From: Flavobacteriales bacterium
GTDB lineage: Bacteria > Bacteroidota > Bacteroidia > NS11-12g > UBA955
Reading direction: 5' to 3'
Length of the DNA: 64,000 bases
Assembly (NCBI GenBank): GCA_947447955.1
Contig: CANFLS010000001.1
Coordinates: forward strand, 124,001 to 188,000
Part shown: piece by piece, positions 1 through 64,000 of the stretch
How positions within the stretch are numbered: the first letter of the stretch is position 1
Layout: every line of letters begins with the position of its first letter
Notes under the pieces: model-generated
Seen by the model: only the letters and a program-made list of their open reading frames with translations
What the model was told of the DNA's origin: nothing
The model's database searches: none
Program-made: the position numbers and the translations under genes

Positions 1-58
1 CTTGAATCCAAGTTTGGGCATCGGCCCTGTAGGTTTCACCGAGAAATAGAATTTTCAT
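1..58 (-). CDS. Start of a glycosyltransferase-like gene (partial)
   Basis: Only the first 19 codons lie in the window; the gene runs off the left edge. The peptide begins MKILFLGETYRADAQTWIQ, which resembles the N-terminal first beta strand of GT-B glycosyltransferases in Bacteroidota polysaccharide clusters. It lies upstream-left of asnB on the same strand, about 70 nt beyond its stop, which fits a polysaccharide operon. Family assignment from 19 residues is weak. Confidence 0.45.
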   Translation of the reverse strand, partial: MKILFLGETYRADAQTWIQ

Positions 59-129
59 ACACACAAAAATACAATAAATGTGGTTATCATCACATTCACT
101 TACAAAATATGCTTGACTCTTCGTGAAGT

Positions 130-1983
130 TTAATGTGTTGTTGAAAAATATTTTTCATACCAAAGGCTCAAAAAGAAAATTTGTCTAACAAAAGCGTAGT
201 TTTCTTTTTTGCCATTTTGGAAATCATTTTTTAATTGGGTAACATTTATTTGGCTCATACTTCCTATTTTGAAAAAATCCGATAAATGCATTTTATCGAA
301 ATGTTCCTTAAAATAAGGTTGATAGAGCATGATATAATCCCAAGGAATACTTAAACCGATTTTTCTATGGTTTGTGATATATTGAGGTAATTTTTTTCCA
401 ATGGAATTCATCAAAACTTGTTTCCCTTTTCCTTTTGTTGAGAAATATTCATCGGGAAGGCTAAATGCACCAGCTACAATTCGATAATCTTCAAAGGGTT
501 CTCTATTTTCAATTGACGCACCCATACTGACTCTGTCATTTCTGTCGTTCAACGTTGGAATATGCGTAAATTGCTCCAAATACATTAATTGACGGAGTGG
601 GCTATTAGGAAAATAGGTTTTAGCTTCTTTAAGTATTTCCAATCTGTAACTAGGCAAAAGGTTGAGACCACCAATATTATTTTCTTCCAAATCTTTGATA
701 TACATGATATTTGCATTCATCATGATTTGAGATGATTCATTTTTGGTATACACATATTTTTGCATTTTACGCCAACGATCATCTTTTATGTATTTTGTTG
801 GTACGTAGTTTAGCAGCTGCAACAATTTGTGCCGAAATTGATTGCCGTGCACTTTGTATCGGACATATCCTCCAAAAATTTCATCGGCTGCTTCACCACT
901 GAGCAAAACGGAAACATCTTTTTTGGCTTCTTTAGACAAGCCGAGTAAATGAGGCTCTTGCACATGCATGAACGGTTCATCTGAATTGTAGATGGCCTCT
1001 TCTGTAAGTGCTGCCAATTGATTGTCAGTAAATTCGAAACTATGAAAATCGAGGCCTAATTCTTTGGTATATCTAGCGGCAATTTTTGATTCGTCGTGTT
1101 TTGAATCAGAAAAAGCAATATTCCAGGTACTTATATTCTTATATCCCAATTGACTTTGGGCATAAATAACTGAGCTTGAGTCTAAACCACCGCTTAGCAT
1201 GGTTCCTACTTTGACATCAGATACCATTCGGTAGTTTACACTACTTAAAAATGTTTCTTCAAACCATTGGTAAGGTTTTTCTATTGAGGGATATTTTTTC
1301 GCTTCCTCCCCGAGATGGTACCAACGGGAAGTTTGGGTAATTTGTCCCTCCGAATTAACGGCCATAAAATAACCGGGCAGAATTCTTTTGATTCCTTTGA
1401 AAATTGTATTTTCACCACTTACATGTCGGTAAAATAACAATTCATCAATGTGGGATTCATCAACGGCTTTCTCCATACCGTAAGCAAAAAATGCTTTGGG
1501 TTCTGAGGCAAAAGCAAACTCGGTATTTGTTTGAGCATAGAATAGGGGTTTAATACCCATTCTATCTCTCACTAGGAGTGTGGTTTTATTTTGGTGGTCG
1601 TAAAAAGCAAACGCCCAAAAACCAATTAATTTATGCAGGCAGTTCACTCCTTCATTGATGAGGAGTTGCAGTAGAACTTCGGTATCGGTTTCTGTTTGAA
1701 AATTGAAACCTTCTTGAACAAGTGCTGCTTTTATTTCTTGGTAGTTAAAAATCTCACCGTTAAAAGTAAGGGTATAGCGTTTGCATGATGAATGAAATGG
1801 TTGATTTCCATTACTTGATAGATCAATAATACTTAACCTTCGGTGAGCAAATCCAATATGGTTATCAATGTAAATTCCGGCAGCATCAGGTCCTCTGTGA
1901 ACCATAGAATCCCTCATAGCAATGAGTTTCTCTTCGTTAATAGGAGCTTGGTTTCTATTAATTATACCGGCAATACCGCACAT
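130..1983 (-). CDS. asnB: Asparagine synthetase, glutamine-hydrolysing
   Basis: Transfers the amide nitrogen of glutamine to aspartate in an ATP-dependent reaction; homologues in polysaccharide clusters may amidate sugar acids. The protein of 617 residues starts MCGIAG, so Cys2 is available as the class II glutaminase nucleophile. The glutaminase domain covers about residues 1-200. The synthetase domain follows, with the ATP-pyrophosphatase loop SGGLDSS at about 264-270. Length is normal for AsnB. Its neighbours are a glycosyltransferase start and sugar-nucleotide epimerases, so a role in surface-glycan modification is possible, but housekeeping asparagine synthesis is equally compatible. The 110 nt before the start are AT-rich and I see no clear TAnnTTTG box there. 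Confidence 0.93.
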   Translation of the reverse strand: MCGIAGIINRNQAPINEEKLIAMRDSMVHRGPDAAGIYIDNHIGFAHRRLSIIDLSSNGNQPFHSSCKRYTLTFNGEIFNYQEIKAALVQEGFNFQTETDTEVLLQLLINEGVNCLHKLIGFWAFAFYDHQNKTTLLVRDRMGIKPLFYAQTNTEFAFASEPKAFFAYGMEKAVDESHIDELLFYRHVSGENTIFKGIKRILPGYFMAVNSEGQITQTSRWYHLGEEAKKYPSIEKPYQWFEETFLSSVNYRMVSDVKVGTMLSGGLDSSSVIYAQSQLGYKNISTWNIAFSDSKHDESKIAARYTKELGLDFHSFEFTDNQLAALTEEAIYNSDEPFMHVQEPHLLGLSKEAKKDVSVLLSGEAADEIFGGYVRYKVHGNQFRHKLLQLLNYVPTKYIKDDRWRKMQKYVYTKNESSQIMMNANIMYIKDLEENNIGGLNLLPSYRLEILKEAKTYFPNSPLRQLMYLEQFTHIPTLNDRNDRVSMGASIENREPFEDYRIVAGAFSLPDEYFSTKGKGKQVLMNSIGKKLPQYITNHRKIGLSIPWDYIMLYQPYFKEHFDKMHLSDFFKIGSMSQINVTQLKNDFQNGKKENYAFVRQIFFLSLWYEKYFSTTH

Positions 1984-2149
1984 ATTTTCTTTGTAAATTT
2001 ATTTTTTGTAAATTTTAAATTTCACAATGAATATTAAAATTTTGACAAAAGTATTACATTGTTATTGAATAATTTGTAGTATTATTTCGAAGTAGGAATA
2101 AATGGATTAATTTCTTAGTAAATGATATATTTTTCTTTGTAAACGGATT

Positions 2150-2468
2150 ATTGCTTCGCGAGCACTTCGTGCGATCGCTTCGCGAGTTGACATCCCTACG
2201 GGAGTTGACGCTGCTTCGCAGGTTGACGCTTCGCTGTTGACAGCACTACGTGCGTTTACGGCTTTGCCAGTTTACGCTTCGCTGTTTAATTTAGTTTAGA
2301 GGTTTAGATGGCTACGCCGTTTAGAAGCATTGCCATGCGTTTAGACCGCTGCGCGGTTAAGTTGGTAATTTGAATAAGAAACCTAAAATAACCCTTTCAA
2401 CCCAATAATCCCAATCTGTCTAATCTTTCTAACCCTCCCGAAAGCTTTCGGGATAATCTGTCTAATCT
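2150..2468 (+). repeat. Composite repeat A: mini-hairpin array, core, palindrome, 9-mers
   Basis: About 12 small palindromes occur at 2152-2358, such as GCACTTCGTGC, CCCTACGGG and CCGCTGCGCGG, spaced by GTTGAC, then GTTTAC, then GTTTAG. The core (ACCTAAAATAACCCTTTCAAC) is at 2381-2401. The 18-bp palindrome TCCCGAAAGCTTTCGGGA is at 2436-2453, inside GTCTAATC-type 9-mers. Positions 2283-2403 recur almost unchanged at 2836-2956. No protein is supported in this stretch. Confidence 0.9.
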
Positions 2469-2491
2469 GAATTCTTGCAAAGCAAGAATTC
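2469..2491. other. Perfect 10-bp hairpin before a small gene
   Basis: GAATTCTTGC and GCAAGAATTC flank an AAA loop, a perfect 10-bp stem. It abuts the last 9-mer of repeat A and lies 40 nt before the ATG at 2531. It lacks a T tract, so it is not an obvious terminator; it may be another unit of the repeat or a 5' regulatory hairpin. Confidence 0.5.
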
Positions 2492-2530
2492 CAATTGTAT
2501 TTTAACCAAGAATTAATTAAATTTGAATGT

Positions 2531-2767
2531 ATGAAAAAGGTTGATGATAATTTGAAGGAAAAAGAAGAAGATCCATTCATCACAATTCTTAAATCTTATA
2601 CGTTGGAATTAACTAAAAGTAAAGCTGCTTCAAAAAAATTCTTGGTTGACATTGGTGTAATGACTAAAAAAGGAAACCTAAAAAAGAATTATAGAGCATT
2701 AGCTAATATCCCTTCGGGAGTTGACATCCCTTCGGGAGTTGACTCTGCTTCGCAGGTTGACGCCTAA
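2531..2767 (+). CDS. Small hypothetical protein with repeat-encoded C-terminus
   Basis: A 78-residue protein starting MKKVDDNLKEKEEDP. A TTG 36 nt upstream would add 12 residues, but the ATG is preferred. The central part (about residues 20-57; ELTKSKAASKKFLVDIGVMTKKGNLKKNYR) resembles short, widespread Bacteroidota proteins of unknown function. From residue 60 the frame enters repeat B: the last 19 residues read IPSGVD, IPSGVD, SASQVD, A, each hexapeptide being one 18-nt repeat unit. The native C-terminus was probably near the ALANI segment and the stop is now provided by the array. Repeats A and B flank the gene in direct orientation. Function unknown. Confidence 0.6.
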   Translation: MKKVDDNLKEKEEDPFITILKSYTLELTKSKAASKKFLVDIGVMTKKGNLKKNYRALANIPSGVDIPSGVDSASQVDA

Positions 2768-3012
2768 CGGCTGTTGACATCGCTGCGCGAGTTTAAGGCT
2801 TCACCAGTTTACGCTACGCTGTTTACGCCTTCGGCTGTTTAATTTGGTTTAGAGGTTTAGATGGCTACGCCGTTTAGAAGCATTGCCATGCGTTTAGACC
2901 GCTGCGCGGTTAAGTTGGATATTTGAATAAGAAACCTAAAATAACCCTTTCAACCCATCTAAACCAATCCGTCTAATCCGTCTAATCTGTCTAACCCGTC
3001 TAATCCCTTTTT
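2707..3012 (+). repeat. Composite repeat B
   Basis: The array at 2707-2920 has about 11 palindromic units, beginning with two CCCTTCGGG units and ending with GCATTGCCATGC and CCGCTGCGCGG. The core is at 2934-2954, followed by 9-mers GTCTAATCC, GTCTAATCT and GTCTAACCC up to about 3006. There is no 18-bp palindrome in this copy. Positions 2836-2956 match 2283-2403 of repeat A at 118 of 121 positions by eye. Confidence 0.9.
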
Positions 3013-3069
3013 TTTAGTTTAAGGTTTATAGTTTATTTCCAAACCCTCAGAACTTCCTAAAACGTTTAG

Positions 3070-3077
3070 TATATTTG
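3070..3077 (+). promoter_or_regulatory. -7 box TATATTTG of the epimerase gene
   Basis: Matches the Bacteroidota -7 consensus TAnnTTTG. Only 4 nt (CCCT) separate it from the ATG at 3082, so the transcript should start at or within a few nt of the start codon. A GTTTAG hexamer directly precedes the box. Confidence 0.7.
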
Positions 3078-3081
3078 CCCT

Positions 3082-4029
3082 ATGAAAATTCTCGTTACAG
3101 GTGGGGCTGGTTTTATTGGGTCGAACCTTGTTAAAGCTTTGTTAGATAGAGATGATATTCATCTGGTTAGGGTGCTCGATAACTTTGCAACGGGGCATTT
3201 GAGTAACATCGAAGAATTTTTGGATAATCCGCGTTTTGAGTTGGTGGAAGGCGATATTCGCAATCCTGAAGATTGCCTGAAAGCCTGCAACGGCATCGAT
3301 GCGGTGAGTCACCAAGCTGCATTGGGATCGGTTCCGCGGAGCATTGCCGATCCAATTACATCGCACAATGTAAATGTAAATGGCTTTTTGAATATGCTTG
3401 AGGCGGTGCGTGAAAAAGGCATCCAACGCTTTGTATATGCCTCTAGTTCATCCGTTTATGGCGACTTGAATGAGTCCCCCAAAATAGAAAAGAGGGTGGG
3501 AAAAGTACTGAGTCCTTATGCTGCTACCAAAATGACGAATGAATTGTATGCCGAGGCGTATGCCAAAAACTACAATTTGAGCATTGCGGGGTTCAGATAT
3601 TTCAATGTTTTTGGTCCCAAGCAAGATCCGAACGGCCCGTACGCGGCTGTTATTCCGTTGTTTGTGAAGAGTGCGTTGAACAATGTCCCTCCAACCATTA
3701 ACGGCGATGGAAGCATTACCCGCGATTTCACTCCAGTTGCCAATGTTGTGAATATTAATATTTTGGCACTTTTGGGTTATCTTGAGGGAAGCAAACACTA
3801 CGTATTTAATGTGGCGTGTGGAAACACCACCGATTTGTTGAGCATTTGGAAAATGGTGAAGGAAATTGCGAAGAGCAATGTGAATGCGGTTCACGGCCCT
3901 GTTCGAAAAGGAGATATTTTATTTAGTTTGGCGGATGTGTCTTTTGCCAAAGAAATTTTGGGTTATAAGCCTGAAAGTGATTTGAAACGTGCCTTGACAG
4001 AGGCGGTTGAATACTACAAAGGGCTGTAA
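3082..4029 (+). CDS. wbpP: UDP-N-acetylhexosamine 4-epimerase, WbpP-like
   Basis: An extended short-chain dehydrogenase of 315 residues, predicted to interconvert UDP-GlcNAc(A) and UDP-GalNAc(A) in the cytoplasm for O-antigen or capsule synthesis. The Rossmann motif GGAGFIG is at 7-13. The SSSSVYGD stretch and the catalytic Y146xxxK150 (SPYAATK) are present, and segments such as HQAALGSVPRSI and RYFNVFGPKQDPNGPYAAVIP are characteristic of WbpP/TviC-type epimerases. It is slightly shorter than the usual 330-345 residues. The start is fixed by a TATATTTG box 4 nt upstream. It is followed by the dehydratase gene at 4217, so the pair may be one sugar-nucleotide unit. Substrate is inferred, not shown. 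Confidence 0.85.
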   Translation: MKILVTGGAGFIGSNLVKALLDRDDIHLVRVLDNFATGHLSNIEEFLDNPRFELVEGDIRNPEDCLKACNGIDAVSHQAALGSVPRSIADPITSHNVNVNGFLNMLEAVREKGIQRFVYASSSSVYGDLNESPKIEKRVGKVLSPYAATKMTNELYAEAYAKNYNLSIAGFRYFNVFGPKQDPNGPYAAVIPLFVKSALNNVPPTINGDGSITRDFTPVANVVNINILALLGYLEGSKHYVFNVACGNTTDLLSIWKMVKEIAKSNVNAVHGPVRKGDILFSLADVSFAKEILGYKPESDLKRALTEAVEYYKGL

Positions 4030-4187
4030 AAAGAGATTTGTGTGTTGATGGCGATGGTTTTTTGTCTGTTTAAATTGTCATTTTTTAGTGAACCACCCAT
4101 TTTTTTAGTGGATGATGGTGTATTTTGACAAGTTTGGCTCGAAATTTGCCAATTGTAGAAGAAATTCTATCATAAAATATAACAAAA

Positions 4188-4195
4188 TATTTTTG
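4188..4195 (+). promoter_or_regulatory. Candidate -7 box TATTTTTG of the dehydratase gene
   Basis: TATTTTTG fits TAnnTTTG and lies 21 nt before the ATG at 4217. It overlaps a TTGAGGGA octamer (4193-4200). The 187-nt gap after the epimerase gene holds no gene. Confidence 0.5.
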
Positions 4196-4216
4196 AGGGA
4201 TTAAATTTAGTAATTA

Positions 4217-6133
4217 ATGAATACATTGTTAGAAAATTGGGTGTTAAAACTGCTTGGTAAAAGGTATTTGCCAACGTGGTTGATTCTCATTTTAGATCTG
4301 GCAATTGTTGGTGCATCGTTTGTTTTTGCACTGTTGTTACTTACTGATTTTTCATTTTATAAAATTTATTCGAATTCTCGTTTGCAGGTTTGGGGTCTTT
4401 TGGAATTGACCTATGGTGTATCGTTTGTATTGTTTAAGTCGTACGAAGGTGCTTTCAGACATACAGGAGTTCGAGATTTGATGCGTCTGTTTTTGGCAAC
4501 GCTACTTGCATTGTTTCTTTCTTTTGCTGTTACCAGATTGGCTGGTGCTTCGGGCTATTTTGAAGTAAAGAACATTACATTGTCGTTTTTGATTTTGCAG
4601 GGATTTTCTTTCACTTTGGGTGTGTTGGGAATTCGATTGTTTGTGAAATTGATGTATAGCCGTTATGTATTGAATACCAACAACAAGAATGAAGTGGGTA
4701 TTTTGATTTATGGGGCTGGAACAACAGGTGTTACTGTGAGAAACGCGGTGAAGCAAGACCGTAATTCGGGATTGGTTGTGGTTGGTTTCATTGACGATAA
4801 CGATAAGTTCGTAGGAAAGCGCATTGACGGGGTGAAAGTTTATTCGTTTGATGAAGTTTTTAACCGCGAGTTTATATTAAAGAATAAAGTACGAGAGGTA
4901 ATTTGGTCGATACAATCTGAGGCGGGAACTTCCTTTCACAAGGTGGGAGATTCGTGTTTGGCAAATAATTTGTCCTTCCACAAGGTACCAAATATCAAAG
5001 ATTGGATAGGAGGCTCGTTGAGTCGCAAGCAATTGCGCAGGGTAAAGATCGAAGATTTGTTGAACCGCACATCTATATCGTTAGAAAATAAATTGTTGAA
5101 TGAGTTTATTTCGAATAAGTGTGTTTTGGTAACTGGTGCAGCGGGAAGCATAGGCAGTGAATTGTGTAGGCAGATTTTGTATTACAAACCGAAGCAGTTG
5201 GTTATTTTCGACAATGGTGAAACGGCTTTGAATGATTTTATATTGGAATTAAACAAGCATTCGAAATTCGCCAACAATGTTACTTGTATCATTGGTGATG
5301 TAACCCGTGAGAATAGGGTTTCTGAAATATTTGAAACTTACAAACCTGAATTGGTGTTTCATGCTGCTGCTTATAAGCATGTGCCGATGATGGAAGTGAA
5401 TGCCAAAGAGGCTGTTCGTGTGAATGTTGAGGGAACGAGAATCGTTGCCGAGGCTAGCGTGAAATATGGCACTAAGAAGTTTGTGATGATTTCAACAGAC
5501 AAGGCTGTGAATCCTACGAATGTGATGGGAGCTTCGAAGCGTGCTGCTGAGATTTTGGTTCAAAACATGAGTGGGAAATCTGAAACGGAGTTCATTACCA
5601 CGCGATTTGGAAATGTGTTGGGATCGAACGGATCGGTTATTCCATTGTTCCGCCGTCAGATTGAGAACCGCGAAAATGTGACTGTAACGCACAAAGACAT
5701 TACACGTTATTTCATGACGATTCCTGAGGCTTGTCAGTTGGTATTCCAGGCGGCAACCATGGGGAATGGTGGGGAGATTTTCGTGTTCGACATGGGAGAA
5801 CCCGTTAAGATTTATGACTTGGCAGTAAAGATGATCAAGCTGAGTGGATTGACACTTGATACTGATATTAAGATTGTTGAAACCGGATTGAGATCTGGTG
5901 AGAAGTTATATGAGGAATTGTTGAGCAATGCTGAAAACACGTTGCCAACGCATCACCCGAAGATATTGATTGCCAAGGTGCGCCAATACGAAGATGATCA
6001 GATTCTACCTATTTACAGCAATTTGAATTACGCTGCCTTTAATGGCGCCACTGACTGGGAAATCGTAAAATTGCTAAAGGATTTAATTCCCGAGTACAAG
6101 AGTCAGAATTCTATTTACGAGGGATTGGACTGA
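4217..6133 (+). CDS. Membrane-bound nucleotide-sugar 4,6-dehydratase, WbpM/CapD family
   Basis: A 638-residue polysaccharide-biosynthesis protein. About four hydrophobic helices occupy residues 15-145, followed by a CoA-binding-like Rossmann region (IYGAGTTG near 163-172) and the dehydratase domain. The second nucleotide-binding motif GAAGSIGSE is at 307-315. The STDKAV motif begins at 426, and M437 and K441 in MGASK give the Ser/Met/Lys arrangement of WbpM-type enzymes in which Met replaces the usual Tyr. The family makes UDP-4-keto-6-deoxy-GlcNAc, the first step to QuiNAc, FucNAc or bacillosamine. The stop codon abuts repeat C directly. Family certain; exact product inferred. Confidence 0.9.
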   Translation: MNTLLENWVLKLLGKRYLPTWLILILDLAIVGASFVFALLLLTDFSFYKIYSNSRLQVWGLLELTYGVSFVLFKSYEGAFRHTGVRDLMRLFLATLLALFLSFAVTRLAGASGYFEVKNITLSFLILQGFSFTLGVLGIRLFVKLMYSRYVLNTNNKNEVGILIYGAGTTGVTVRNAVKQDRNSGLVVVGFIDDNDKFVGKRIDGVKVYSFDEVFNREFILKNKVREVIWSIQSEAGTSFHKVGDSCLANNLSFHKVPNIKDWIGGSLSRKQLRRVKIEDLLNRTSISLENKLLNEFISNKCVLVTGAAGSIGSELCRQILYYKPKQLVIFDNGETALNDFILELNKHSKFANNVTCIIGDVTRENRVSEIFETYKPELVFHAAAYKHVPMMEVNAKEAVRVNVEGTRIVAEASVKYGTKKFVMISTDKAVNPTNVMGASKRAAEILVQNMSGKSETEFITTRFGNVLGSNGSVIPLFRRQIENRENVTVTHKDITRYFMTIPEACQLVFQAATMGNGGEIFVFDMGEPVKIYDLAVKMIKLSGLTLDTDIKIVETGLRSGEKLYEELLSNAENTLPTHHPKILIAKVRQYEDDQILPIYSNLNYAAFNGATDWEIVKLLKDLIPEYKSQNSIYEGLD

Positions 6134-6462
6134 CCGCTTCGCGGTGTTGACGGCCTAAAGGCCTGTTGACGCTACGCTGTTGACGGCTGCGCCTATTTAA
6201 TTTAGCAACCACCTAAAATAAACCATTTCAACTCCCGAAAGCTTTCGGGATAAACCCTTCTAAACCTTTTCCGTTTAGAAGCACTTCGTGCGTTTAGGGT
6301 TTAGAAGCATTGCCATGCGTTTAGACCGCTGCGCGGTTATGTTGGAAATCTGATTTAAAAGATTTGCTCAACGACCGGTAGGTTTTCTAAACGGCGAAGC
6401 CATCTAAACGCCGTAGGCTTCTAAACGAGCGAAGCTCTTCTAAACGCACGCAGTGCATCTAA
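6134..6462 (+). repeat. Composite repeat C (long form with hexamer inversion)
   Basis: Order of parts: palindromic units CCGCTTCGCGG, GGCCTAAAGGCC, GCTACGC and GGCTGCGCC with GTTGAC spacers; core 6211-6232; 18-bp palindrome 6233-6250; GTTTAG-spaced units; a linker with AACGACCGG; then CTAAAC-spaced units GGCGAAGCC, GCCGTAGGC, GAGCGAAGCTC and GCACGCAGTGC. The right half is therefore inverted relative to the left half. The copy at 13155-13590 has the same order on the other strand. No gene is supported here. Confidence 0.9.
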
Positions 6463-7091
6463 GATTGTTCATTTTTAAGTTGTTTTAAAACGGGAATCAT
6501 GATTTCTCTAATCCAAGCTGGAGCGAGTCTTATATCGTGTTCAAGCCGGGTATGTTTTTCTTTTTTTAATAGATTTTGAATATGTTGAATTTCGTTAAAT
6601 TTTACATTGTCTTTTCCAATAGTTTTTAGCGCTTGAATTACCAAGCCACTAATTTCACCAACTGCTGATACATTTTTGGGGGATGTTTTTTTAAAAGTGA
6701 TACGGCTATTTCCAATAATTAATTTGCGGGCTGACCCATCGGTAAGATATATAAAATTAGTGGGCACTTGTGTTGAAAGGCCTAATTGGTTTAGCGCATA
6801 CGAGCCAGTTGGTACAATTCTAGCTTTATCTCTTTTTGCAATTGCGAGTACAACCGTTTCGATATTAGGAGTTAATTCTCCAATGAGTTTGCTATTAGCG
6901 GGTCTATAATAAATACCTTTAGAAAGCCTTTGCAATTCACCGGTTTTTACCATTCGCTCTAATGCTTTATTTACTGTTTTGGCATTTGCAATTTTCACGA
7001 AATTTTCCACAAAAAATAGCGTGCCTCTCTTGGCTTTTTTTATTTTTATAAGGGTTTTATATTCAGTACTTAAGTACATATATTTGTTCAT
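6459..7091 (-). CDS. AbiEi-like antitoxin-family protein (DUF6088), orphan
   Basis: A 210-residue protein starting MNKYMYLSTEY. The N-terminal winged-helix part (about 15-65, ending LQRLSKGIYYRP) and the following PTGSYALNQLGLSTQVPTN segment are typical of DUF6088 proteins, which resemble the antitoxin of type IV AbiE systems. AbiEi antitoxins act as repressors paired with an AbiEii nucleotidyltransferase toxin normally encoded just downstream. Here the downstream side is repeat C and no nucleotidyltransferase is present, so it is an orphan. The TAG stop lies in the last CTAA of repeat C. A TATATTTG box sits 9 nt before the ATG. Function as an antitoxin is inferred. Confidence 0.75.
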   Translation of the reverse strand: MNKYMYLSTEYKTLIKIKKAKRGTLFFVENFVKIANAKTVNKALERMVKTGELQRLSKGIYYRPANSKLIGELTPNIETVVLAIAKRDKARIVPTGSYALNQLGLSTQVPTNFIYLTDGSARKLIIGNSRITFKKTSPKNVSAVGEISGLVIQALKTIGKDNVKFNEIQHIQNLLKKEKHTRLEHDIRLAPAWIREIMIPVLKQLKNEQS

Positions 7092-7100
7092 ATTATGTCG

Positions 7101-7108
7101 CAAATATA
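7101..7108 (-). promoter_or_regulatory. -7 box TATATTTG of the DUF6088 gene
   Basis: The consensus TAnnTTTG on the minus strand lies 9 nt before the ATG at 7091 and supports that start over the in-frame TTG at 7103. Confidence 0.65.
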
Positions 7109-7135
7109 ATAAAAAAATGCGACAATTTTTGGCTA

Positions 7136-7313
7136 TTCGCTTCGCGTTGCTCAGCGAGTTTACGCCTGTCGGCGGTTTACGGCTTCGCCTGTTTAAATTT
7201 GCAACTACTTAAAATAAGCCATTTCAACTCATCTAAACCCAATCCGTCTAATCCGTCTAACCCGTCTAATCAGTCTAATCTAAATAAAACCTGTCTAACC
7301 CGTCTAATCCAGA
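7136..7313 (+). repeat. Composite repeat D (short form)
   Basis: Three palindromic units (a CGCTTCGCG unit joined to a second TTGCTCAGCG arm, GCCTGTCGGC, GGCTTCGCC) spaced by GTTTAC are followed by the core at 7207-7228 and seven or so 9-mers GTCTAATCC, GTCTAACCC or GTCTAATCA up to 7309. No 18-bp palindrome. The last 9-mer overlaps the 3' end of hicB. Confidence 0.88.
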
Positions 7314-7711
7314 TAAAACTCCTTGAGCCCCATTAGCTCAGCGCCAATAGTATTTAGTCCATCCATGATTTTCATTTTCTGCTTTTTGGATGGCTTTTTC
7401 TTTCCAGTTGTGTATTGCGATAATAACGACGGATTCATGCCTATCCTGTTTGCAACATATCTGCTATTGATTACTTTGTAATACTCAAAAAATTGTTGCA
7501 AATCTATTGACAAGCATAAATTATCTGTTTCTATAAACTTGTCTTTATCTTCGAGTAGCAAATTAAAAGCTTCAACCAAATTACAGTTCAATTCTGAAAT
7601 ATTGCTTCCCGTTGAATAGAGAGACTCAGCTGGTTTATATTCCAGATAAGCGGAGTAACCGGTGTCGGTAATTTCAACATTTACATCGAATTTGCTTTTT
7701 AGTTTTTTCAT
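7304..7711 (-). CDS. hicB: HicB-type antitoxin with HTH domain
   Basis: A 135-residue protein. The N-terminal half (VNVEITDTGYSAYLEY, SNISELNCNLVEAFNLLLED) fits the HicB partial RNase-H fold. The C-terminal half has an XRE-type helix-turn-helix (RYVANRIGMNPSLLSQYTTGKKKPS, about 85-110), as in chromosomal HicB antitoxins that also repress their operon. Three nucleotides upstream lies the end of a broken hicA (7715-7809), so the antitoxin persists without an intact toxin. The final codons (FYLD and TAG) run into the first 9-mer of repeat D, so the extreme C-terminus may be altered by the repeat. Confidence 0.8.
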   Translation of the reverse strand: MKKLKSKFDVNVEITDTGYSAYLEYKPAESLYSTGSNISELNCNLVEAFNLLLEDKDKFIETDNLCLSIDLQQFFEYYKVINSRYVANRIGMNPSLLSQYTTGKKKPSKKQKMKIMDGLNTIGAELMGLKEFYLD

Positions 7712-7714
7712 AAG

Positions 7715-7809
7715 TTACCTTTTAATTTGGGCTTGCTTGAATAATGACTTTTCAGTTCCTTTTGCTAATTCCTTAGATCCGTGATCTTTTTAGCTTCCGA
7801 ATATTTCAT
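7715..7809 (-). pseudogene. hicA: hicA toxin remnant with internal deletion
   Basis: ATG at 7809 opens MKYSEAKKI, a typical HicA N-terminus. Another frame then reads HGSKELAKGTEKSLFKQAQ and IKR before TAA at 7715-7717, a typical HicA C-terminus. The two parts overlap at the junction, are out of frame, and lack the central region of roughly 30-35 codons including the double-stranded-RNA-binding core. Read from the ATG, translation stops after 14 codons. The 3-nt spacing to hicB is normal for a hicAB operon. A CAAAAGTA (TACTTTTG on minus) at 7811-7818 may be the -7 box but lies only 1 nt from the ATG. Confidence 0.75.
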
Positions 7810-7901
7810 ACAAAAGTAAATTATAATTAACTTTTTTCCAAAGAATAATTACAAAGTTCTGTAATAATTTTAAGTGATTCGTTTGATAAACGTTTATATA
7901 T

Positions 7902-8102
7902 GTTTAGAATGCTTCGCGTTGCTCAGCGGGTTTACGCCTTCGGCAGTTTACGCTATGCTGTTTACGGCTTCGCCTGTTTAATTTTATGTAGTTACCTGAA
8001 ATAAACCTTTTCAACTCCCGAAAGCTTTCGGGATAAACGCCCTAAACGCTTATAAACCTTTTAAATGCCGAAGGCTTTTAAACGAGCGAAGCTCTTCTAA
8101 AC
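7902..8102 (+). repeat. Composite repeat E
   Basis: An array of ATGCTTCGCG with a second arm, GCCTTCGGC, GCTATGC and GGCTTCGCC spaced by GTTTAC, then core 7994-8015, the 18-bp palindrome 8016-8033, then TAAAC-spaced units GCCGAAGGC and GAGCGAAGCTC. The gap between hicA and higB (7810-8235) is otherwise AT-rich and holds only the higB operator and promoter. Confidence 0.88.
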
Positions 8103-8190
8103 CTTTTATTCCTTTTTACCCATTTATAAACGTTTAAACAACGGATAAGCAAATAGTTATGAATTAATTTTGTGAAATAATGAAAATAAT

Positions 8191-8223
8191 AGTTCACTTT
8201 TTGCGAACTTTTATTTATATTTG
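8191..8223 (+). promoter_or_regulatory. higBA promoter with overlapping operator-like inverted repeat
   Basis: The -7 box TATATTTG is at 8216-8223, 12 nt before the higB ATG. AGTTCAC (8191-8197) and GCGAACT (8203-8209) form an inverted repeat with one mismatch and a 5-nt spacer, over the expected -33 region. This placement fits autorepression by the HigA antitoxin, which is usual for HigBA modules. Confidence 0.55.
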
Positions 8224-8235
8224 AATTGTGAAGAG

Positions 8236-8565
8236 ATGAAAGTGCATTTGATAAAGAAGAAAACCGTTTCTGATTTTGTAGAAAGTCATTCAAATGGGAA
8301 AAGTGATTTTGATAAGTGGTTGAAATTGGTTTTGATTGCTGATTTAAATGAACCTAGTGATATCCCCAAATTATTCGCTGGTGCGGATTTATTGGGTAAT
8401 GGTTTCAACAGGGTCATTTTTAATATTGGAGGGAATAAATTTAGATTAATCGCTTCTTATTATTTTGGCAGTAAGAATGTGCGATTTTATATCAAGTGGA
8501 TTGGAACACACAGTGAATACGATGAACTCTGCAAACAGAGTAAACAGTATTTTATAAGTATTTAA
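8236..8565 (+). CDS. higB: HigB-family mRNA interferase toxin
   Basis: A 109-residue protein starting MKVHLIKKKTVSDFV; the TTG at 8221 is rejected because it lies in the promoter box. The sequence matches the HigB_toxin family of RelE-like ribosome-dependent nucleases: WLKLVLIADLNEPSDIPK followed by GNGFNRVIFNIGGNKFRLIA, then VRFYIKWIGTHSEYDEL. The family cleaves translated mRNA and is neutralised by the HTH antitoxin encoded 27 nt downstream. The toxin-first gene order is typical of higBA. It appears intact. It lies between repeats E and F. Confidence 0.88.
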   Translation: MKVHLIKKKTVSDFVESHSNGKSDFDKWLKLVLIADLNEPSDIPKLFAGADLLGNGFNRVIFNIGGNKFRLIASYYFGSKNVRFYIKWIGTHSEYDELCKQSKQYFISI

Positions 8566-8592
8566 AAACATGGAATAATTAATAACTGAGAA

Positions 8593-8967
8593 ATGGAAAC
8601 AACATTAATATACAAAAGGATCAAAACTGAAGTTCAATACAACGATTATGTGAATCGAATGGAAGAATTGGATGGATTGCTATTAGAAAATCATACCACG
8701 GAATTGGAAGAGGAGATTGATTTGTTGCAACTCTTAGTAGAAGATTACGAAGAGAAATATATTACAACGAAAGGATCGAGTCCCTCAGAATTGTTAAAAC
8801 TTTTATTGAAAGAACATAAACTGACTGCCAATGATTTGGCAAAAGAATTTGAAATTAGCAAAAGCGTTATAAGTGAAGTTTTATCGAACAAAAGGGCAAT
8901 TAGTAAATCTTTCGCAGTAAAAATAGCGGGTAAATTTAAGGTTCGTTTAGAGCACTTCGTGCGTTGA
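8593..8967 (+). CDS. higA: HigA-type antitoxin with XRE HTH domain
   Basis: A 124-residue protein with an acidic N-terminal helical part (about 20-60, ELEEEIDLLQLLVEDYEEKY) that would cover the toxin. A C-terminal XRE helix-turn-helix follows at about 68-118 (LTANDLAKEFEISKSVISEVLSNKRAIS). It should bind HigB and repress the operon through the inverted repeat at 8191-8209. The last codons, coding for LEHFVR, and the TGA stop lie inside repeat F (unit GCACTTCGTGC and hexamer GTTGAC), where relatives usually end KFKV or similar plus a short tail. The coding region is otherwise intact. Confidence 0.87.
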   Translation: METTLIYKRIKTEVQYNDYVNRMEELDGLLLENHTTELEEEIDLLQLLVEDYEEKYITTKGSSPSELLKLLLKEHKLTANDLAKEFEISKSVISEVLSNKRAISKSFAVKIAGKFKVRLEHFVR

Positions 8968-9285
8968 CATCGCTTCGCGTTGCTCAGCGCGTTTACTGCT
9001 TCGCAGGTTGACATCGCTATCGCGAGTTGACGGCCTAAAGGCCTGTTGACATCGCTTCGCATTGCTCAGCGAGTTGACGCTCATTCTGAGCTGTTGACGG
9101 CAGCGCCTGTTTAATTATATGTAGTTACCTGAAATAAACCTTTTCAACTCCCGAAAGCTTTCGGGATAAACCCTATCTGTCTAATCAGTCTAACCTGTCT
9201 AACCCGTCTAATCCAGATAAAATCTGTCTAATCAGTCTAACCTTCCCGAAAGCTTTCGGGATAACCCGTCTAACCCCAAAATAAT
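8945..9285 (+). repeat. Composite repeat F
   Basis: A clean array at 8945-9110: palindromes GCACTTCGTGC, CGCTTCGCG with a second arm, TGCTTCGCA, TCGCTATCGCGA, GGCCTAAAGGCC, GCTCATTCTGAGC and GGCAGCGCC with GTTGAC or GTTTAC between them. The core follows at 9127-9148. Two 18-bp palindromes are at 9149-9166 and 9244-9261, with 9-mers between and after them. Both flanking genes converge on it: higA ends at its left edge and wecB ends inside its right part. Confidence 0.92.
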
Positions 9286-10344
9286 CCTCCCCGCGGTTTT
9301 ACCATCCCACATAGGTGGAATGGCGCCAGTTTTCCAATTGCCAGATTGAAGTTTATCTAGGGCTTTGGCCAAGTCTTCAGGTTTTGTACCTACCAATTCG
9401 TTGGTGCCAATGTCGCAGGTTTCTGGACGTTCGGTGCTGGTTCTCATGGTGATGCAAGGCACTCCCATGACAGTGGTTTCTTCCGTTATTCCCCCAGAAT
9501 CGGTTACCACACCTTTGGCATGTTTCACCAAATAATTGAATTCGAAGTACGACATCGGATCGGCCATGATTACATTGTTTGGTTTGATTCCAAACAGTTC
9601 CATGTTTTTGCGGGTTCGGGGATGAACCGGGAAAATGACTTTGCTTCCCGACAATGATTTTTCAATCACCTCAAAAATGCTGCGCATTTGTTCGGCGTGA
9701 TCTACATTTGAGGGACGGTGAAGCGTCATCACATAATATTGTTTTTCGCTCAAATTTTCGGTTTGCCAAAGTGAGGGCGCAACCAAATCTTTGTCGTGAT
9801 ACAATAAGGTATCAATCATGGTATTTCCTACGAATTTGATTTTATCGTCGGAAACGCCTGCATTTCTTAAATTGGTATTTGCAGTTTCAGAGGTTGTAAA
9901 AAAGATATCGGTGATACTGTCTGTAACCAAGCGATTGATTTCCTCGGGCATTTCAATGTCCCAACTTCTAATTCCTCCCTCAACATGGGCAACTTTGGTA
10001 TGTAGTTTTTTTGCAACGATGGCGCAGGCCATGGTGCTGGTAACATCGCCAACCACCAAAACATAATCGCAAGGATTTGCTATTAATTCCTTTTCAAAGG
10101 CAACCATAATGGCTGCGGTTTGTTCGGCTTGAGAACCACCACCACATTCGAGGTTCACGTGGGGTTCAGGAATATTTAATTGCTCAAAAAAATTACCCGA
10201 CATGGCTTTGTCGTAATGCTGACCGGTGTGCACCAAGCGAAAATCGATGTTTTTGCCAGAGTTTTTGGCATTTTCAATTTCCCTAATGATAGGGGCTATT
10301 TTCATAAAATTCGGCCTAGCACCTGCAATCAACGTAATTTTCAT
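9232..10344 (-). CDS. wecB: UDP-N-acetylglucosamine 2-epimerase (non-hydrolysing)
   Basis: Interconverts UDP-GlcNAc and UDP-ManNAc in the cytoplasm for surface polysaccharides or secondary cell-wall glycans. The 370-residue protein has the family N-terminus (GARPNFMKIAPI at 8-19), the GGIRSWDIEMPEEINR segment (about 123-138), HRPSN and HPRTRKNM, and DSGGITEE (about 281-288), which contacts the nucleotide. The 3' end lies inside repeat F: the last residues, GLDGLSRKLSGRLD, are the minus-strand reading of the 9-mers and the 18-bp palindrome. The native end was probably near AGRIIL. The promoter box is TATCTTTG 5 nt before the ATG. Confidence 0.92.
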   Translation of the reverse strand: MKITLIAGARPNFMKIAPIIREIENAKNSGKNIDFRLVHTGQHYDKAMSGNFFEQLNIPEPHVNLECGGGSQAEQTAAIMVAFEKELIANPCDYVLVVGDVTSTMACAIVAKKLHTKVAHVEGGIRSWDIEMPEEINRLVTDSITDIFFTTSETANTNLRNAGVSDDKIKFVGNTMIDTLLYHDKDLVAPSLWQTENLSEKQYYVMTLHRPSNVDHAEQMRSIFEVIEKSLSGSKVIFPVHPRTRKNMELFGIKPNNVIMADPMSYFEFNYLVKHAKGVVTDSGGITEETTVMGVPCITMRTSTERPETCDIGTNELVGTKPEDLAKALDKLQSGNWKTGAIPPMWDGKTAGRIILGLDGLSRKLSGRLD

Positions 10345-10349
10345 TGTTA

Positions 10350-10390
10350 CAAAGATACAAAATTTCAGGCACTTCGTGCCTTCAGTTGAC
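10350..10390 (-). promoter_or_regulatory. wecB promoter fused to a repeat unit
   Basis: The box TATCTTTG (10350-10357, minus strand) is 5 nt before the ATG. Upstream, on the minus strand, come the hexamer GTCAAC, TGA and the hairpin AGGCACGAAGTGCCT (10367-10381), then GAAATTT. The same sequence, with two 2-nt differences, stands before pheT at 13573-13621. Confidence 0.75.
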
Positions 10391-10632
10391 GCCTGTCGGC
10401 TGTTGACATCGCTTCGCTGCGCTCAGCGGGTTTACTGCTTCGCAGGTTTACGCTACGCAGTTTACGCTCATTCTGAGCTGTTTACGCTTCGCTGTTTAAT
10501 TATAGGTAACAACTTAAAAATAACCCTGTCAAACCATCTAAACTCAATCTGTCTAATCTGTCTAATCAGTCTAACCCGTCTAATCTAAATAAAATCTGTC
10601 TAATCTGTCTAACCCGTCTAATCTGTCTAATC
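10367..10632 (+). repeat. Composite repeat G
   Basis: Units AGGCACTTCGTGCCT, GCCTGTCGGC, CGCTTCGCTGCGCTCAGCG, TGCTTCGCA, GCTACGC, GCTCATTCTGAGC and GCTTCGC are spaced by GTTGAC then GTTTAC (10367-10497). The core variant is at 10512-10534. About nine 9-mers GTCTAATCT, GTCTAATCA or GTCTAACCC run to 10632, right up to the promoter of the S46 peptidase gene. It lacks the 18-bp palindrome. It fills the 310-nt gap between wecB and the peptidase. Confidence 0.88.
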
Positions 10633-10639
10633 TTTTTAT

Positions 10640-10647
10640 TACTTTTG
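10640..10647 (+). promoter_or_regulatory. -7 box TACTTTTG of the S46 peptidase gene
   Basis: Fits TAnnTTTG and lies 7 nt before the ATG at 10655, immediately after the last 9-mer of repeat G. The 9-mers would therefore occupy the -33 region. Confidence 0.65.
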
Positions 10648-10654
10648 CTTTTTT

Positions 10655-12862
10655 ATGAAACAAAGAATTTTAAGTTTATTGTTGGCTGCTTGCAGTGTGC
10701 TTGCGTTGCGCGCCGACGAAGGTATGTGGCCTTTGAATTTGCTTAGCAAAATTCAAGACAAAATGCAGGCCCGCGGTTTGAAACTTTCTGCTGAAGATAT
10801 TTATGCAATTAATAAATCTTCTGCCAAAGATGCTGTTGTTAGACTTATGTCTAAACAAGGGAGAATGTTCTGCTCTGGTGAAATTATTTCTAGCAAAGGT
10901 TTGTTCCTTACGAATCACCACTGTGGTTATGATGCAATTCAAGAAATTGCGACTCCTCAAGACAATATCCTAGCAAACGGATTTTGGGCAAAATCAATGC
11001 AAGAAGAGCGTCGTGCTGGTTTTAACATTGGTTTGCTTCGCAAAATTGAAGATGTAACTACCCAAGTATTTAACGGTGTTGCCATCAACGCTCCAGAAAC
11101 CGAAAGGGTTGCAAAAATTGCCGCTCAGGTGAATGTTGTAAGAGGCAATTTGTTAAAAGCCCTTGGCGATGAAGCTGCAAACTATATCATTGAAGTAACT
11201 CCTTTCTATAATGGAAATCAGTTCCTTGCAATGTACTACGAAGTTTTCCGCGACATTCGTTTGGTTGGTGCGCCACCAGAAAACGTAGGTAAATTTGGCG
11301 GTGAAACCGACAACTGGAGATGGCCTCGCCACACTTGCGACTTCTCTATGTTCCGCATTTACACAAACGCAAATAACAAGCCTGCCGATTATAACGCAGC
11401 AAACAAAGCGTTCGCCCCTTATCACCACTTCCCAATATCCCTCAAAGGAGTTAAAGAAGGTGATTTTGCAATGACCATGGGATATCCAGGTAGAACTACC
11501 CGTTATACTTATTCTGAGGGAATTCGTTACCTTTCAGGTAAAGAGCGCCCAATGCGTGTGCAGGTTCGTCGTGACATCATGGATGTGTACGAAACTTACA
11601 TGAAAGCCGATAAAAACGTACGTTTGATGTACAGTTCTAAATTGGCTGGATTGGGTAACTACTGGAATAAATTCAATGGCGAAGCGAAAGAATTATCAAA
11701 ACCTGAGTTCTACCAAAAGCGTAAAAGTGCTGAAATGGCATTCGAGCAATGGGTAAGAGCCAATAACAAACAAGACGTTTACGGCGACGTAACCAGTCTT
11801 TACGACGAAGCTTATGCCGGCTTGAACAAATACGGTTTGTACTCTGTGTACTTCCAAGATGGTGTTTCTAACAGCGTTCCAATGTCGAACGTGAGCCAAG
11901 TTTATGGCATTATCAAAACCCAAAAAGACATCGCTGCAATGGATGTAGTGAAGGATTCTGCGAAAATTCGCAAAATGAATGCAGCAGTTGTAAAAATGAT
12001 TGCGGGTTATAATGAGGGAATTTCTGAGGCCTACCATGAATTCAACGGAAACATTGAAAAACAAGTAATTGCAGTAGTATTGAAACATATTTTGATGGAC
12101 TTAGACCATGCGTCTTTGCCAGCATCTATGTTGAAAATGGACGAAAAGTTCAAACATAACTTCACCGAAATGGCAAATTCATTATGGAGCAGTTCAATTT
12201 TCTGCGATACAGTGAAATTGAAAAAAGCCATGGCGAATTTCAAAGCAAAAAATATTGAAAAAGATCCTTTGTATACCATTATTGCGGGTTATGTAAACAT
12301 GATGAATGTTGACTTAAAACCAGTTCTTGATGAAATTTCAAACAAATTGGCCCGTGCAAATCGTTTGTATATGGCAGCACAATTTGAAATGGAGAAAGAC
12401 AAAGTATTTGCACCAGATGCGAATGGTACAATGCGTTTGAGCTATGGAACTATTGAAAGTTACAAAGCCCGCGATGCTGTTGATTATAACTATTTCACCA
12501 CGTCACGCGGTGTGCTTGAGAAATACATTGCTGGTGATTTCGAATTTGATGCACCTGATGCATTGATCAATATCATCAAAAAGAAAGACTTCGGTCGTTA
12601 TGCAGATGCGGACGGCGAACTTCACACTTGTTTCTTGAGCAACAACGACATTACTGGTGGTAACTCAGGTAGTCCTGTAATCAACGGAAACGGTGAATTG
12701 ATTGGTACTGCTTTCGACGGTAACTGGGAAGCAATTGCGAGTGACTTTGGCTTTATGCCATCTGTTCAACGCACAATCAGTGTTGATATTCGTTACACAT
12801 TGTTTATCGTAGATAAATTGGGTGGCGCTAGCAATATTATTGCGGAGTTAGATCTTAAGTAA
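10655..12862 (+). CDS. S46 family dipeptidyl-peptidase, DPP7-like
   Basis: Removes dipeptides from peptide N-termini in the periplasm to feed peptide catabolism. A signal peptide (MKQRILSLLLAACSVLALRA) starts the 735-residue protein. The S46 triad is visible: His in TNHHCGY (88-89), Asp229 in the WRWPRHTCDF context, and Ser671 in GGNSGSPV. Residue 689, 18 after the Ser, is Gly (AFDGNWE). In DPP11 the equivalent position is Arg, giving acidic P1 specificity, so Gly points to the DPP7 type with hydrophobic P1. Length is normal for S46. It lies between repeats G and H1. Its likely terminator (13110-13136) is separated from it by repeat H1. Confidence 0.93.
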   Translation: MKQRILSLLLAACSVLALRADEGMWPLNLLSKIQDKMQARGLKLSAEDIYAINKSSAKDAVVRLMSKQGRMFCSGEIISSKGLFLTNHHCGYDAIQEIATPQDNILANGFWAKSMQEERRAGFNIGLLRKIEDVTTQVFNGVAINAPETERVAKIAAQVNVVRGNLLKALGDEAANYIIEVTPFYNGNQFLAMYYEVFRDIRLVGAPPENVGKFGGETDNWRWPRHTCDFSMFRIYTNANNKPADYNAANKAFAPYHHFPISLKGVKEGDFAMTMGYPGRTTRYTYSEGIRYLSGKERPMRVQVRRDIMDVYETYMKADKNVRLMYSSKLAGLGNYWNKFNGEAKELSKPEFYQKRKSAEMAFEQWVRANNKQDVYGDVTSLYDEAYAGLNKYGLYSVYFQDGVSNSVPMSNVSQVYGIIKTQKDIAAMDVVKDSAKIRKMNAAVVKMIAGYNEGISEAYHEFNGNIEKQVIAVVLKHILMDLDHASLPASMLKMDEKFKHNFTEMANSLWSSSIFCDTVKLKKAMANFKAKNIEKDPLYTIIAGYVNMMNVDLKPVLDEISNKLARANRLYMAAQFEMEKDKVFAPDANGTMRLSYGTIESYKARDAVDYNYFTTSRGVLEKYIAGDFEFDAPDALINIIKKKDFGRYADADGELHTCFLSNNDITGGNSGSPVINGNGELIGTAFDGNWEAIASDFGFMPSVQRTISVDIRYTLFIVDKLGGASNIIAELDLK

Positions 12863-13080
12863 AGATTAGGCAGGTTAGACAGATTAGACGGATTAGACGG
12901 ATAATTCGGGATTAGACGGATTATCCCAAAAGCTTTCGGGAGGGTTAGACAGATTAGACAGATTGGGTTTAGGCGGGTTTAAGGGTTATTTAAAATCCTT
13001 ACTAAAAACTAAACTCATGGCAATGCTTCTAAACCCTAAACCAAAAAAGGATTAGACAGATTAAAAATCTAAAGGTTTAA
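12863..13080 (-). repeat. Repeat cluster H1: inverted 9-mer arrays
   Basis: On the plus strand the 9-mers read GATTAGACG or GGTTAGACA, so the array is inverted relative to A-G. A variant of the 18-bp palindrome with one mismatch (TCCCAAAAGCTTTCGGGA) is at 12924-12941, and a GCATGGCAATGC unit with CTAAAC is near 13017. This occupies the space between the S46 peptidase stop and the terminator at 13110. Confidence 0.8.
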
Positions 13081-13109
13081 ACCACATAAGAATCTTAGTA
13101 ATACAAATG

Positions 13110-13136
13110 GGGCTGCACGAAAGTGTGGCCCTTTTT
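13110..13136 (+). terminator. Rho-independent terminator
   Basis: GGGCTGCAC and GTGTGGCCC pair (two G-U pairs) around a GAAA loop, followed by TTTTT. It lies 248 nt after the S46 peptidase stop with only repeat H1 between, so it most likely terminated that gene before the repeat arrived. Confidence 0.75.
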
Positions 13137-13154
13137 GTTGGGAATTCAAAGGTT

Positions 13155-13590
13155 TATAAGCACTTCGTGCGTTTAGGGAGTTTATAAAAGTTTAGAAGCC
13201 TCCGGCGTTTAGATGGCTGCGCCGTTTAGAAGACCTGCCGGTCGTTGAGCAAATGTTTTAATTAGATTTCTAACATAACCGCGAAGCGGTCTAAACGCAT
13301 GGCAATGCTTCTAAACCCTAAACGCACGAAGTGCTTCTAAACCAAAAAGGGATTAGACGGATTGGGTTTATCCCGAAAGCTTTCGGGAGTTGAAAGGTTT
13401 ATTTTAGGTGGTTGCTAAATTAAACAGCCGCAGGCGTCAACAGCGTAGCGTCAACTGCCGAAAGGCGTAAACCCGCGCAGCGGTAAACCCGCGCAGCGGT
13501 AAACAGCATAGCGTAAATTGCCGAAGGCATAAACTCGCTGAGCAACGCGAAGCGATGTCAACAGGCGCAGCCGTCAACTGAAGGCACGAA
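13155..13590 (-). repeat. Composite repeat H2 (long form, inverted)
   Basis: Read on the minus strand from 13590, it has the order of repeat C: GTTGAC/GTTTAC array (about 10 units), core 13389-13409, 18-bp palindrome 13371-13388, GTTTAG units, the linker with AACGACCGG, then CTAAAC units. Differences from C inside the palindromic units fall mostly in the loop base, for example CCGCTTCGCGG against CCGCTGCGCGG. The gap from 12863 to 13618 holds only H1, the terminator, H2 and the pheT promoter. Confidence 0.9.
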
Positions 13591-13613
13591 GTGCCTGAAA
13601 TTTCCTATCTTTG
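13573..13613 (+). promoter_or_regulatory. pheT promoter fused to a repeat unit
   Basis: GTCAAC, TGA, the hairpin AGGCACGAAGTGCCT (13582-13596), GAAATTT, then the box TATCTTTG (13606-13613) 5 nt before the ATG at 13619. The arrangement duplicates the wecB promoter, although pheT and wecB are unrelated. The hairpin lies where a -33 element would be expected. Confidence 0.75.
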
Positions 13614-13618
13614 TGGCA

Positions 13619-63258: not shown

Positions 63259-63278
63259 TTGATGTTTGAACAGTATTT

Positions 63279-63306
63279 AAAAAAAGGGGCTTTTGCCCCT
63301 TTTTTT
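63279..63306 (+). terminator. Terminator of susCD
   Basis: AAAAAAAGGGGC and GCCCCTTTTTTT pair around TTTT, 20 nt after the SusD stop. The first mini-hairpin unit of repeat I starts at its very end. Confidence 0.9.
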
Positions 63307-63605
63307 GTTGACGCTACGCTGTTGACGCTACGCTGTTTATGGCTATCGCTTGTTTAGAATTGTAAAACCAACTTTTATAAACTTTTATAAACCCCAGACA
63401 ATCTGTCTAATCTGTCTAACCGGTCTAATCCGTCTAACCTTTTTTTGTTGACGCTACGCTGTTTATGGCTATCGCCTGTTTAGAGTTGTAAAACCAACTT
63501 TTATAAACGCTCATAAACCGTTAAAAACCTTAGAATTCCAACAATCCCAATCTGTCTAATCCTCCCGAAAGCTTTCGGGATAACCGGTCTAATCCGTCTA
63601 ACCCT
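63307..63605 (+). repeat. Composite repeat I, internally duplicated
   Basis: Two successive copies of the block TTTTTTTGTTGAC, GCTACGC unit(s), GTTTATGGCTATCGC, TTGTAAAACCAACTTTTATAAAC start near 63300 and 63433. Each is followed by 9-mers GTCTAATCT, GTCTAACCG or GTCTAATCC. The 18-bp palindrome is at 63563-63580. The usual core is replaced by the TTGTAAAACCAACTTTTATAAAC-type sequence. It fills the gap between the susD terminator and asnS; the nearest other copy is 50 kb away. Confidence 0.85.
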
Positions 63606-63609
63606 ATAA

Positions 63610-64000
63610 TTATGGTTTAAGACGTCCGTACATTCTTGGGAAAGGAATGCTTTCTCTTACGTGTTTCAATTTACACACCCAAGTAACCATTCTTTCTAAT
63701 CCCAATCCAAAACCTGAATGAGGTACTGATCCAAATCTACGCAAATCTAAATACCATTCGAATTCAGACATTGGCAAATCGTGTTCTTTGATTTTTTCGA
63801 TAAGACTTTCTACGTTTGTTTCACGTTCTCCACCACCAACAATTTCACCATATCCCTCAGGAGCCAAAACATCTACACCACGGGCAAAACGAGAATCGTT
63901 AGGGTTGCGTTTTAAATAGAAGGCTTTCACTTCATGAGGCCAATCGTAAACCATTACAGGACGGTCAAACAAACGGGTTAACACTGTTTCATCGCTGCCA
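63610..64000 (-). CDS. asnS: Asparaginyl-tRNA synthetase, C-terminal part (partial)
   Basis: The gene runs off the right edge; 130 residues are visible. The frame reads GSDETVLTRLFDRPVMVYDWPHEVKAFYLKRN, then DVLAPEGYGEIVGGGERE (class II motif 2 region) and the motif 3 stretch GFGLGLERMVTWVCKLKHVRESIPFPRMYGRLKP at the C-terminus, typical of AsnRS. The enzyme charges tRNA-Asn. The TAA stop is 5 nt from the last 9-mer of repeat I, which does not enter the coding region. Confidence 0.95.
   Translation of the reverse strand, partial: GSDETVLTRLFDRPVMVYDWPHEVKAFYLKRNPNDSRFARGVDVLAPEGYGEIVGGGERETNVESLIEKIKEHDLPMSEFEWYLDLRRFGSVPHSGFGLGLERMVTWVCKLKHVRESIPFPRMYGRLKP

Follow-up and report, generated by a model that had tools for sequence, protein, structure and literature searches.

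In the genomes of a genus of uncultured flavobacteria, non-coding elements lying between ordinary genes each consist of two arrays of short tagged units, turned toward one another on either side of a core sequence, and this inward polarity is a genus-wide rule. We recovered them in a 64,000-nt stretch of DNA (hereafter the window; contig C1, positions 124001–188000) of a 2.8-Mb Flavobacteriales draft genome (G000; 70 contigs, 94% complete). As the first-pass annotation of the window had noted, the hexamer tag flips its orientation inside the long-form repeat, copy C (6260–6462). Direct reading of the sequence places GTTTAG at 6273, 6292, 6299, and 6319 in the left half and CTAAAC at 6387, 6404, 6421, and 6440 in the right half. 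The left arm (6273–6337, + strand) contains the hairpins GCACTTCGTGC (6281–6291; TTC loop), GCATTGCCATGC (6307–6318), and ACCGCTGCGCGGT (6325–6337; TGC loop), the second of which, with its 4-nt loop, is the one exception to the TNC loops of this half, and the right arm (6387–6462, − strand) contains GGCGAAGCC, GCCGTAGGC, GAGCGAAGCTC, and GCACGCAGTGC, every one with a GNA loop. The linker, or core, at which the switch occurs measures 35 nt (6338–6372) and can be aligned with the cores of other long forms; the length of about 60 nt previously assigned to it needs correction, as it counts in a degraded hairpin unit, GACCGGTAGGTTTT (6373–6386, − strand), whose intact form GACCTGCCGGTC is seen in other copies. 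On the outer side, a CTAAAC hexamer read from the sequence at 6260–6265 (− strand) faces the left arm and forms the outer edge of the preceding module.

The second long form, H2 (13155–13350), is copy C on the other strand (88% identity over 197 nt) and displays the same switch, again in agreement with the annotation. Its left arm of GTTTAG units (13155–13243, + strand) ends in GACCTGCCGGTC (13232–13243) and is followed by a switch comprised of GTTGAG and a 28-nt core (13244–13277, + strand) and a right arm of ACCGCGAAGCGGT and CTAAAC units (13278–13350, − strand). A run of four GTTTAG followed by four CTAAAC hexamers is encountered twice in the window and in none of 30 first-order Markov simulations of it. 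Long-form switches of the type GTTTAG-CAAATG.TTTCTAATTTCGAT...-CTAAAC occur in at least seven places of G000 (C1:60237, C1:79314, C1:130384, C1:137232, C10:74651, C12:37773, and C12:42766), and the linker is also present, diverged to a varying degree, in the related genomes G007, G009, and G004. Since other copies and other species preserve the switch, what the annotation had proposed from these two copies, namely directional units inverted about a linker, stands.

The rule extends well beyond the long form. In 438 kb of G000, arrays are present in 44 of the 192 gaps that measure 40 bp or more, and read from left to right 30 of these start with GTT and end with AAC, 11 point rightward (>) at both ends, three point leftward (<) at both, and none is reversed (27, 12, 4, and 0, respectively, in an earlier pass), with genes called by a simple ORF rule and gaps sampled mainly from array-rich regions. 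Pooled over six genomes, among which orthologous gaps are not independent and several relatives are incomplete drafts, 89 array-bearing intergenic regions include 58 inward ones (> at the start, < at the end), 30 whose two ends point the same way (19 rightward, 11 leftward), and a single reversed one. The inward polarity is present for all four orientations of the flanking genes, and hence is independent of transcriptional direction; a role solely as terminators was likewise rejected, since arrays are also found between divergent gene starts. Moreover, the polarity holds even though the two arms of one gap often differ in their class of unit.

These classes include units with a hairpin, tagged by GTTTAG or by GTTGAC/GTTTAC, and hairpin-free ones, namely 9-mers (RTTAGACRG) and 10-mers (GTTTATRARN). 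Among the triloops on the GTT strand in the 438 kb of G000, 87 are TNC and none is GNA, the latter falling on the other strand; G009 has two GNA exceptions on the GTT strand. Any of the four bases can occupy the N of the loop and, counting every type of loop, C-G closes 107 of 133 hairpins. The stems themselves are highly variable (GAGC/GCTC, GCAC/GTGC, GGC/GCC, GCC/GGC, ACC/GGT, TGC/GCA, CGC/GCG, TCCC/GGGA, TCGC/GCGA, and others), with Watson-Crick pairing of 74–98% by class among distinct units; in four of the five length classes, all but that with 2-bp stems, no shuffle pairs as well. Of the 48 cells without a Watson-Crick pair, about 12% are G-U, as against 17% expected from random mismatches. 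d(GNA) loops with G-C stems form exceptionally stable DNA mini-hairpins (PMC4686876), and in G000 the C(GNA)G loop with a G-C stem is confined to one fixed strand. Given the C-G-closed GNA loops on the CTAAAC/GTCAAC strand, the compensating stems, and the lack of G-U enrichment, these observations, small in number, point to a hairpin shape kept at the level of DNA rather than RNA structure; the CTAAAC strand would fold in vivo.

Copy C shares its gap (6134–6458), which is filled with arrays from the WbpM-like gene (4217–6133, +) to the DUF6088 gene (6459–7103, −), with GTTGAC hairpin units (6146–6195, +), a second core sequence of the GTTTAATTTAGCAACCACCTAAAATAAACCATTTCAAC type (6196–6232, +; also at 13389–13425, −, with a related one at 7191–7228), and the perfect palindrome TCCCGAAAGCTTTCGGGA (6233–6250). 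This 18-nt palindrome has seven copies in the window (at 2436, 6233, 8016, 9149, 9244, 13371, and 63563), each within or beside an array, and variants of it (TCCCGATAGCTATCGGGA) occur elsewhere in G000. Other array-filled gaps of the window are found at 2174–3030, with an internal direct duplication (2281–2432 and 2834–2985, 93% identical) that is itself a composite array with both copies inside the one gap; 7111–7303 (pattern >><<<<<<); 7865–8170, the array-filled part of the gap between the gene at 7304–7711 (−) and a HigB-like gene (8221, +); 8968–9231 (pattern >>>>>>>><<<<); 10345–10654, which has a GTTGAC/GTTTAC left arm and a 9-mer right arm; 12863–13612, between an S46 peptidase gene and pheT; and 63277–63610. 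The counterpart of the pheT gap in G007 is also array-filled, with 347 bp of different content, and arrays are found upstream of pheT in G009 too, but there the adjoining gene differs. Toxin-antitoxin-like genes lie between the arrays from 6459 to 8967, viz., those for the DUF6088/AbiEi-like protein (6459–7103, −) and for a HigB-like toxin and its HTH partner (8221–8565 and 8593–8967, +). Along the contig, the arrays form hot regions several kb long, separated by long array-free stretches (C1 57–87 kb, 126–138 kb, and 187 kb in G000). Other types of arms have cores of their own: in G000, neighboring gaps of C1:66–73 kb combine 9-mer arms with a core of 62 nt, and GTTTATRARN arms flank a core of 38 nt in one gap of G009 and several neighboring gaps of G007. 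Cores are common to neighboring slots.

Comparison of orthologous gaps, anchored on pheT, rpoN, and purQ in stretches from six relatives, separates the conservation of place from that of content. The presence of arrays agrees between G000 and G007 in all 25 gaps compared (11 with arrays in both, 14 in neither, none discordant), for which the chance is 1 in 4.5 million. Array-free gaps are mostly alike in length (389/388, 83/83, and 187/191) and array gaps vary widely. The relative G002 has no arrays in the regions examined, its matching gaps measuring −4 to 20 bp, and the ancestral gaps were probably nearly empty; prfA and rpoN, which are divergent in G000, G007, and G009, are co-directional in G002 with a 20-bp gap (G000 C1:60089 versus G002 C2). 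In nine of 11 shared slots the content is closer to another slot of the same genome than to the ortholog, with one of the two exceptions (pth-mcm) confounded by a small conserved gene within the gap. A small conserved ORF starting with MKNYQEFIVIDPNIRFGKPILKNTRISVGDV is situated within the array-filled gap from pth to the B12-binding protein gene (stretch L034, about 4470–4700), and its region is about 92% identical in DNA in G007. In the adjacent ech-purQ and purQ-aroQ gaps, both arms and the core are of the 9-mer type in G000 but of the GTTTATRARN type in G007; in G009, the closest relative, one of these two gaps is 94% identical to that of G000 over 209 bp and the other has the class of G007. 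Additionally, the rpoN-rbfA gap of G009 has about 136 bp extra between near-direct repeats, resembling the outcome of slippage. Judged from these patterns of similarity, the turnover is concerted, local, and in fixed places, and we infer gene conversion between gaps. Since no target-site duplication or clean filled-empty pair was found, the near-empty orthologous gaps of G002 being too diverged for exact junctions, we likewise only infer that the arrays were inserted as elements.

The family has a narrow host range. Within the genus, the genomes bearing arrays are G000, G004, G006, G007, G009, and G013. A long-form query recovers matches in five of 37 relatives, all five in the same genus, and one GTTGAC-type unit pattern is absent from all the others of the 295 class genomes sampled. 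Scanning 84,980 genomes with GACCTGCCGGTCGTTKAG retrieves 66 stretches, mostly in unrelated organisms; of the four Bacteroidota matches inspected, one, in a Flavobacteriales MAG, carries arrays and the other three look like chance. No description of these repeats was found in the open-access literature. No Rfam family matches positions 1–15000 of the window above its gathering score, and a known RNA family was rejected for that region; a plasmid or phage origin was also rejected, with no match.

We propose, with a probability of roughly 0.55, that the arrays are genus-specific and descend from inverted elements of the MITE/REP type, that slippage and exchange between gaps have rewritten them, and that their hairpin shape is kept at the DNA level. 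The founders would have been MITE/REP-like inserts with inverted ends, whose arms were then lengthened and shortened by slippage of units and overwritten through homologous exchange or local copying between gaps. Such exchange would join arms solely in register and on one strand, permitting hybrid arms; if units are exchanged in this way, the inward polarity would be kept and the flip would be a frozen property. Our best guess is that the arrays are mostly selfish or neutral, while as an alternative reading of the conserved slots selection could keep them in place.

Movement of REP-like elements by an enzyme that recognizes single-stranded DNA hairpins, reading the tag and the GNA hairpin, is rather unlikely as the explanation. 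RAYTs are thought to read GTAG and the REP hairpin in this manner, and the arrays correspondingly combine on one strand a tag and a hairpin of variable stem and fixed loop; REP/BIME likewise show hybrid arrays, preserved palindromes, and accumulation in limited regions (PMC2817692). However, a search whose controls were positive found no Y1 transposase (PF01797, IS200/IS605-like) in G000 or in six further genomes from the genus, of which four are at least 95% complete, and neither the 9-mers nor the 10-mers contain a hairpin themselves. Mobilization by a RAYT was rejected, as the Y1 domain was not found in the genus. A more speculative variant, which we consider doubtful, is that an undescribed single-stranded DNA machinery of non-HUH type uses the tagged GNA mini-hairpins as its substrates and both writes and rewrites intergenic gaps, always at the same sites and with the same inward polarity; if true, this would be a way of editing repeats distinct from mobilization by RAYT, by integrase, or as a classical MITE.

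The first-pass annotation had further suggested that each copy could fold into one large cruciform, and a wider form of this idea is that selection in each gap acts on a single large cruciform or a single long RNA hairpin, serving, for instance, as a bidirectional terminator, insulator, or nuclease signal. Folding with DNA parameters indeed predicts long-range pairing between the halves of both copies (−50.0 kcal/mol, z = −7.0, for copy C and −51.5 kcal/mol, z = −7.9, for H2), levels that none of 200 shuffles reaches, and strong folds of this kind are also predicted for some other long forms. Restricting pairs to 20 nt leaves about −24 kcal/mol for copy C and −18 kcal/mol for H2, and reversing the right half of copy C reduces its fold to −31 kcal/mol, indicating that the inverted polarity does create long-range pairing. 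Further, the dominant class is common to both arms in 21 of 46 two-armed regions, as against 12.3 in shuffles (p=0.004). However, the fold is little affected by the order of the units: six of 24 right-hand unit orders of copy C equal or surpass the native one in folding, and in other copies 15–100% of random orders match or beat the native one. Across the 46 regions an arm is no more complementary to its own partner than to foreign arms (permutation p=0.16), in many gaps the arms differ in class, and between divergent starts no terminator is needed. The tests of unit order and arm complementarity lead us to reject a single conserved cruciform, and selection for such a structure in each gap is unlikely. 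Thus, on the predicted folds, a long cruciform is possible for copy C but does not look like the conserved feature; the polarity is the rule, and the cruciform looks like its by-product.

It is very unlikely that the arrays are regulatory, i.e., sets of binding sites for a nucleoid or regulatory protein: the slots are conserved and array ends lie close to conserved TAnnTTTG-like boxes, which we take to be promoter boxes, but whole unit classes are swapped between species at the same gene. Least credible of all are integron-like sites, in which the gaps would be attC-like folded recombination sites between mobile cassettes; attC sites are recognized by their fold and not their sequence, GTTAGAC fits the GTTRRRY core of integron sites, and toxin-antitoxin-type genes lie between arrays at 6.4–9.0 kb, but this reading is largely refuted by gene content, the genes between arrays being mostly housekeeping ones in conserved order (rpoN, rbfA, purQ, aroQ, and pheT) rather than cassettes, and by the lack of IntI, with no integron integrase above the cut-off in G000 and tyrosine recombinases alone below it. 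The arrays also have many small hairpins in place of the one long hairpin of attC.

The proposed descent from inverted elements places the arrays next to several known systems. They share with REP/BIME and RAYT (the GTAG families) an intergenic location, a fixed tag beside a hairpin with compensating stems, mosaic clusters, restriction to a genus, and rapid turnover (PMC2817692, PMC3733652). In contrast to those, no Y1 enzyme was found in the genus, the hairpins have stems of 2–5 bp and C(GNA)G triloops, the arms are polarized inward across the whole gap where REP/BIME alternate, and hairpin-free 9-mer and 10-mer units follow the same polarity. They are thus intergenic palindromic units with compensating stems, but the tag at the hairpin foot is GTTTAG, GTTGAC, or GTTTAC rather than GTAG or a variant thereof; with neither this tag nor a RAYT found, the family is not filed as REP. 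The CGTC-tagged repeats are comparable tagged palindromes with no known dedicated transposase and with Bacteroidetes among their hosts; they differ in their stems of 8–9 bp, loops of 4–5 nt, rare clustering, and other tag (PMC3733652). BrickBuilt, a MITE of Porphyromonas gingivalis (Bacteroidetes), is also intergenic with tandem short repeats and small inverted ends, but has a 23-nt unit in tandem from leader to tail (PMC4596501), whereas here both arms are arrays, which come in several classes, include hairpin units, and point inward. BOX, RUP, SPRITE, and ERIC are intergenic as well, and the first three cluster and insert into one another (PMC10969869); going by their descriptions, they are set apart by unit grammar and polarity. 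Short, non-coding, and dispersed in gaps with inverted ends, the arrays resemble MITEs, although where the arms differ in class these inverted ends consist of the unit polarity only. Taken together, the comparison suggests that the arrays belong among the bacterial repeats of the REP/MITE kind as a member not yet described, for which no mobilizing enzyme is visible. The place and polarity of this intergenic DNA are conserved across species and hairpin shape is kept, while its sequence is replaced in concert in each genome and no RAYT is found. The spread and maintenance of REP-like repeats without their usual enzyme thereby become open to testing, as does a possible natural role for the exceptionally stable d(GNA) hairpins.
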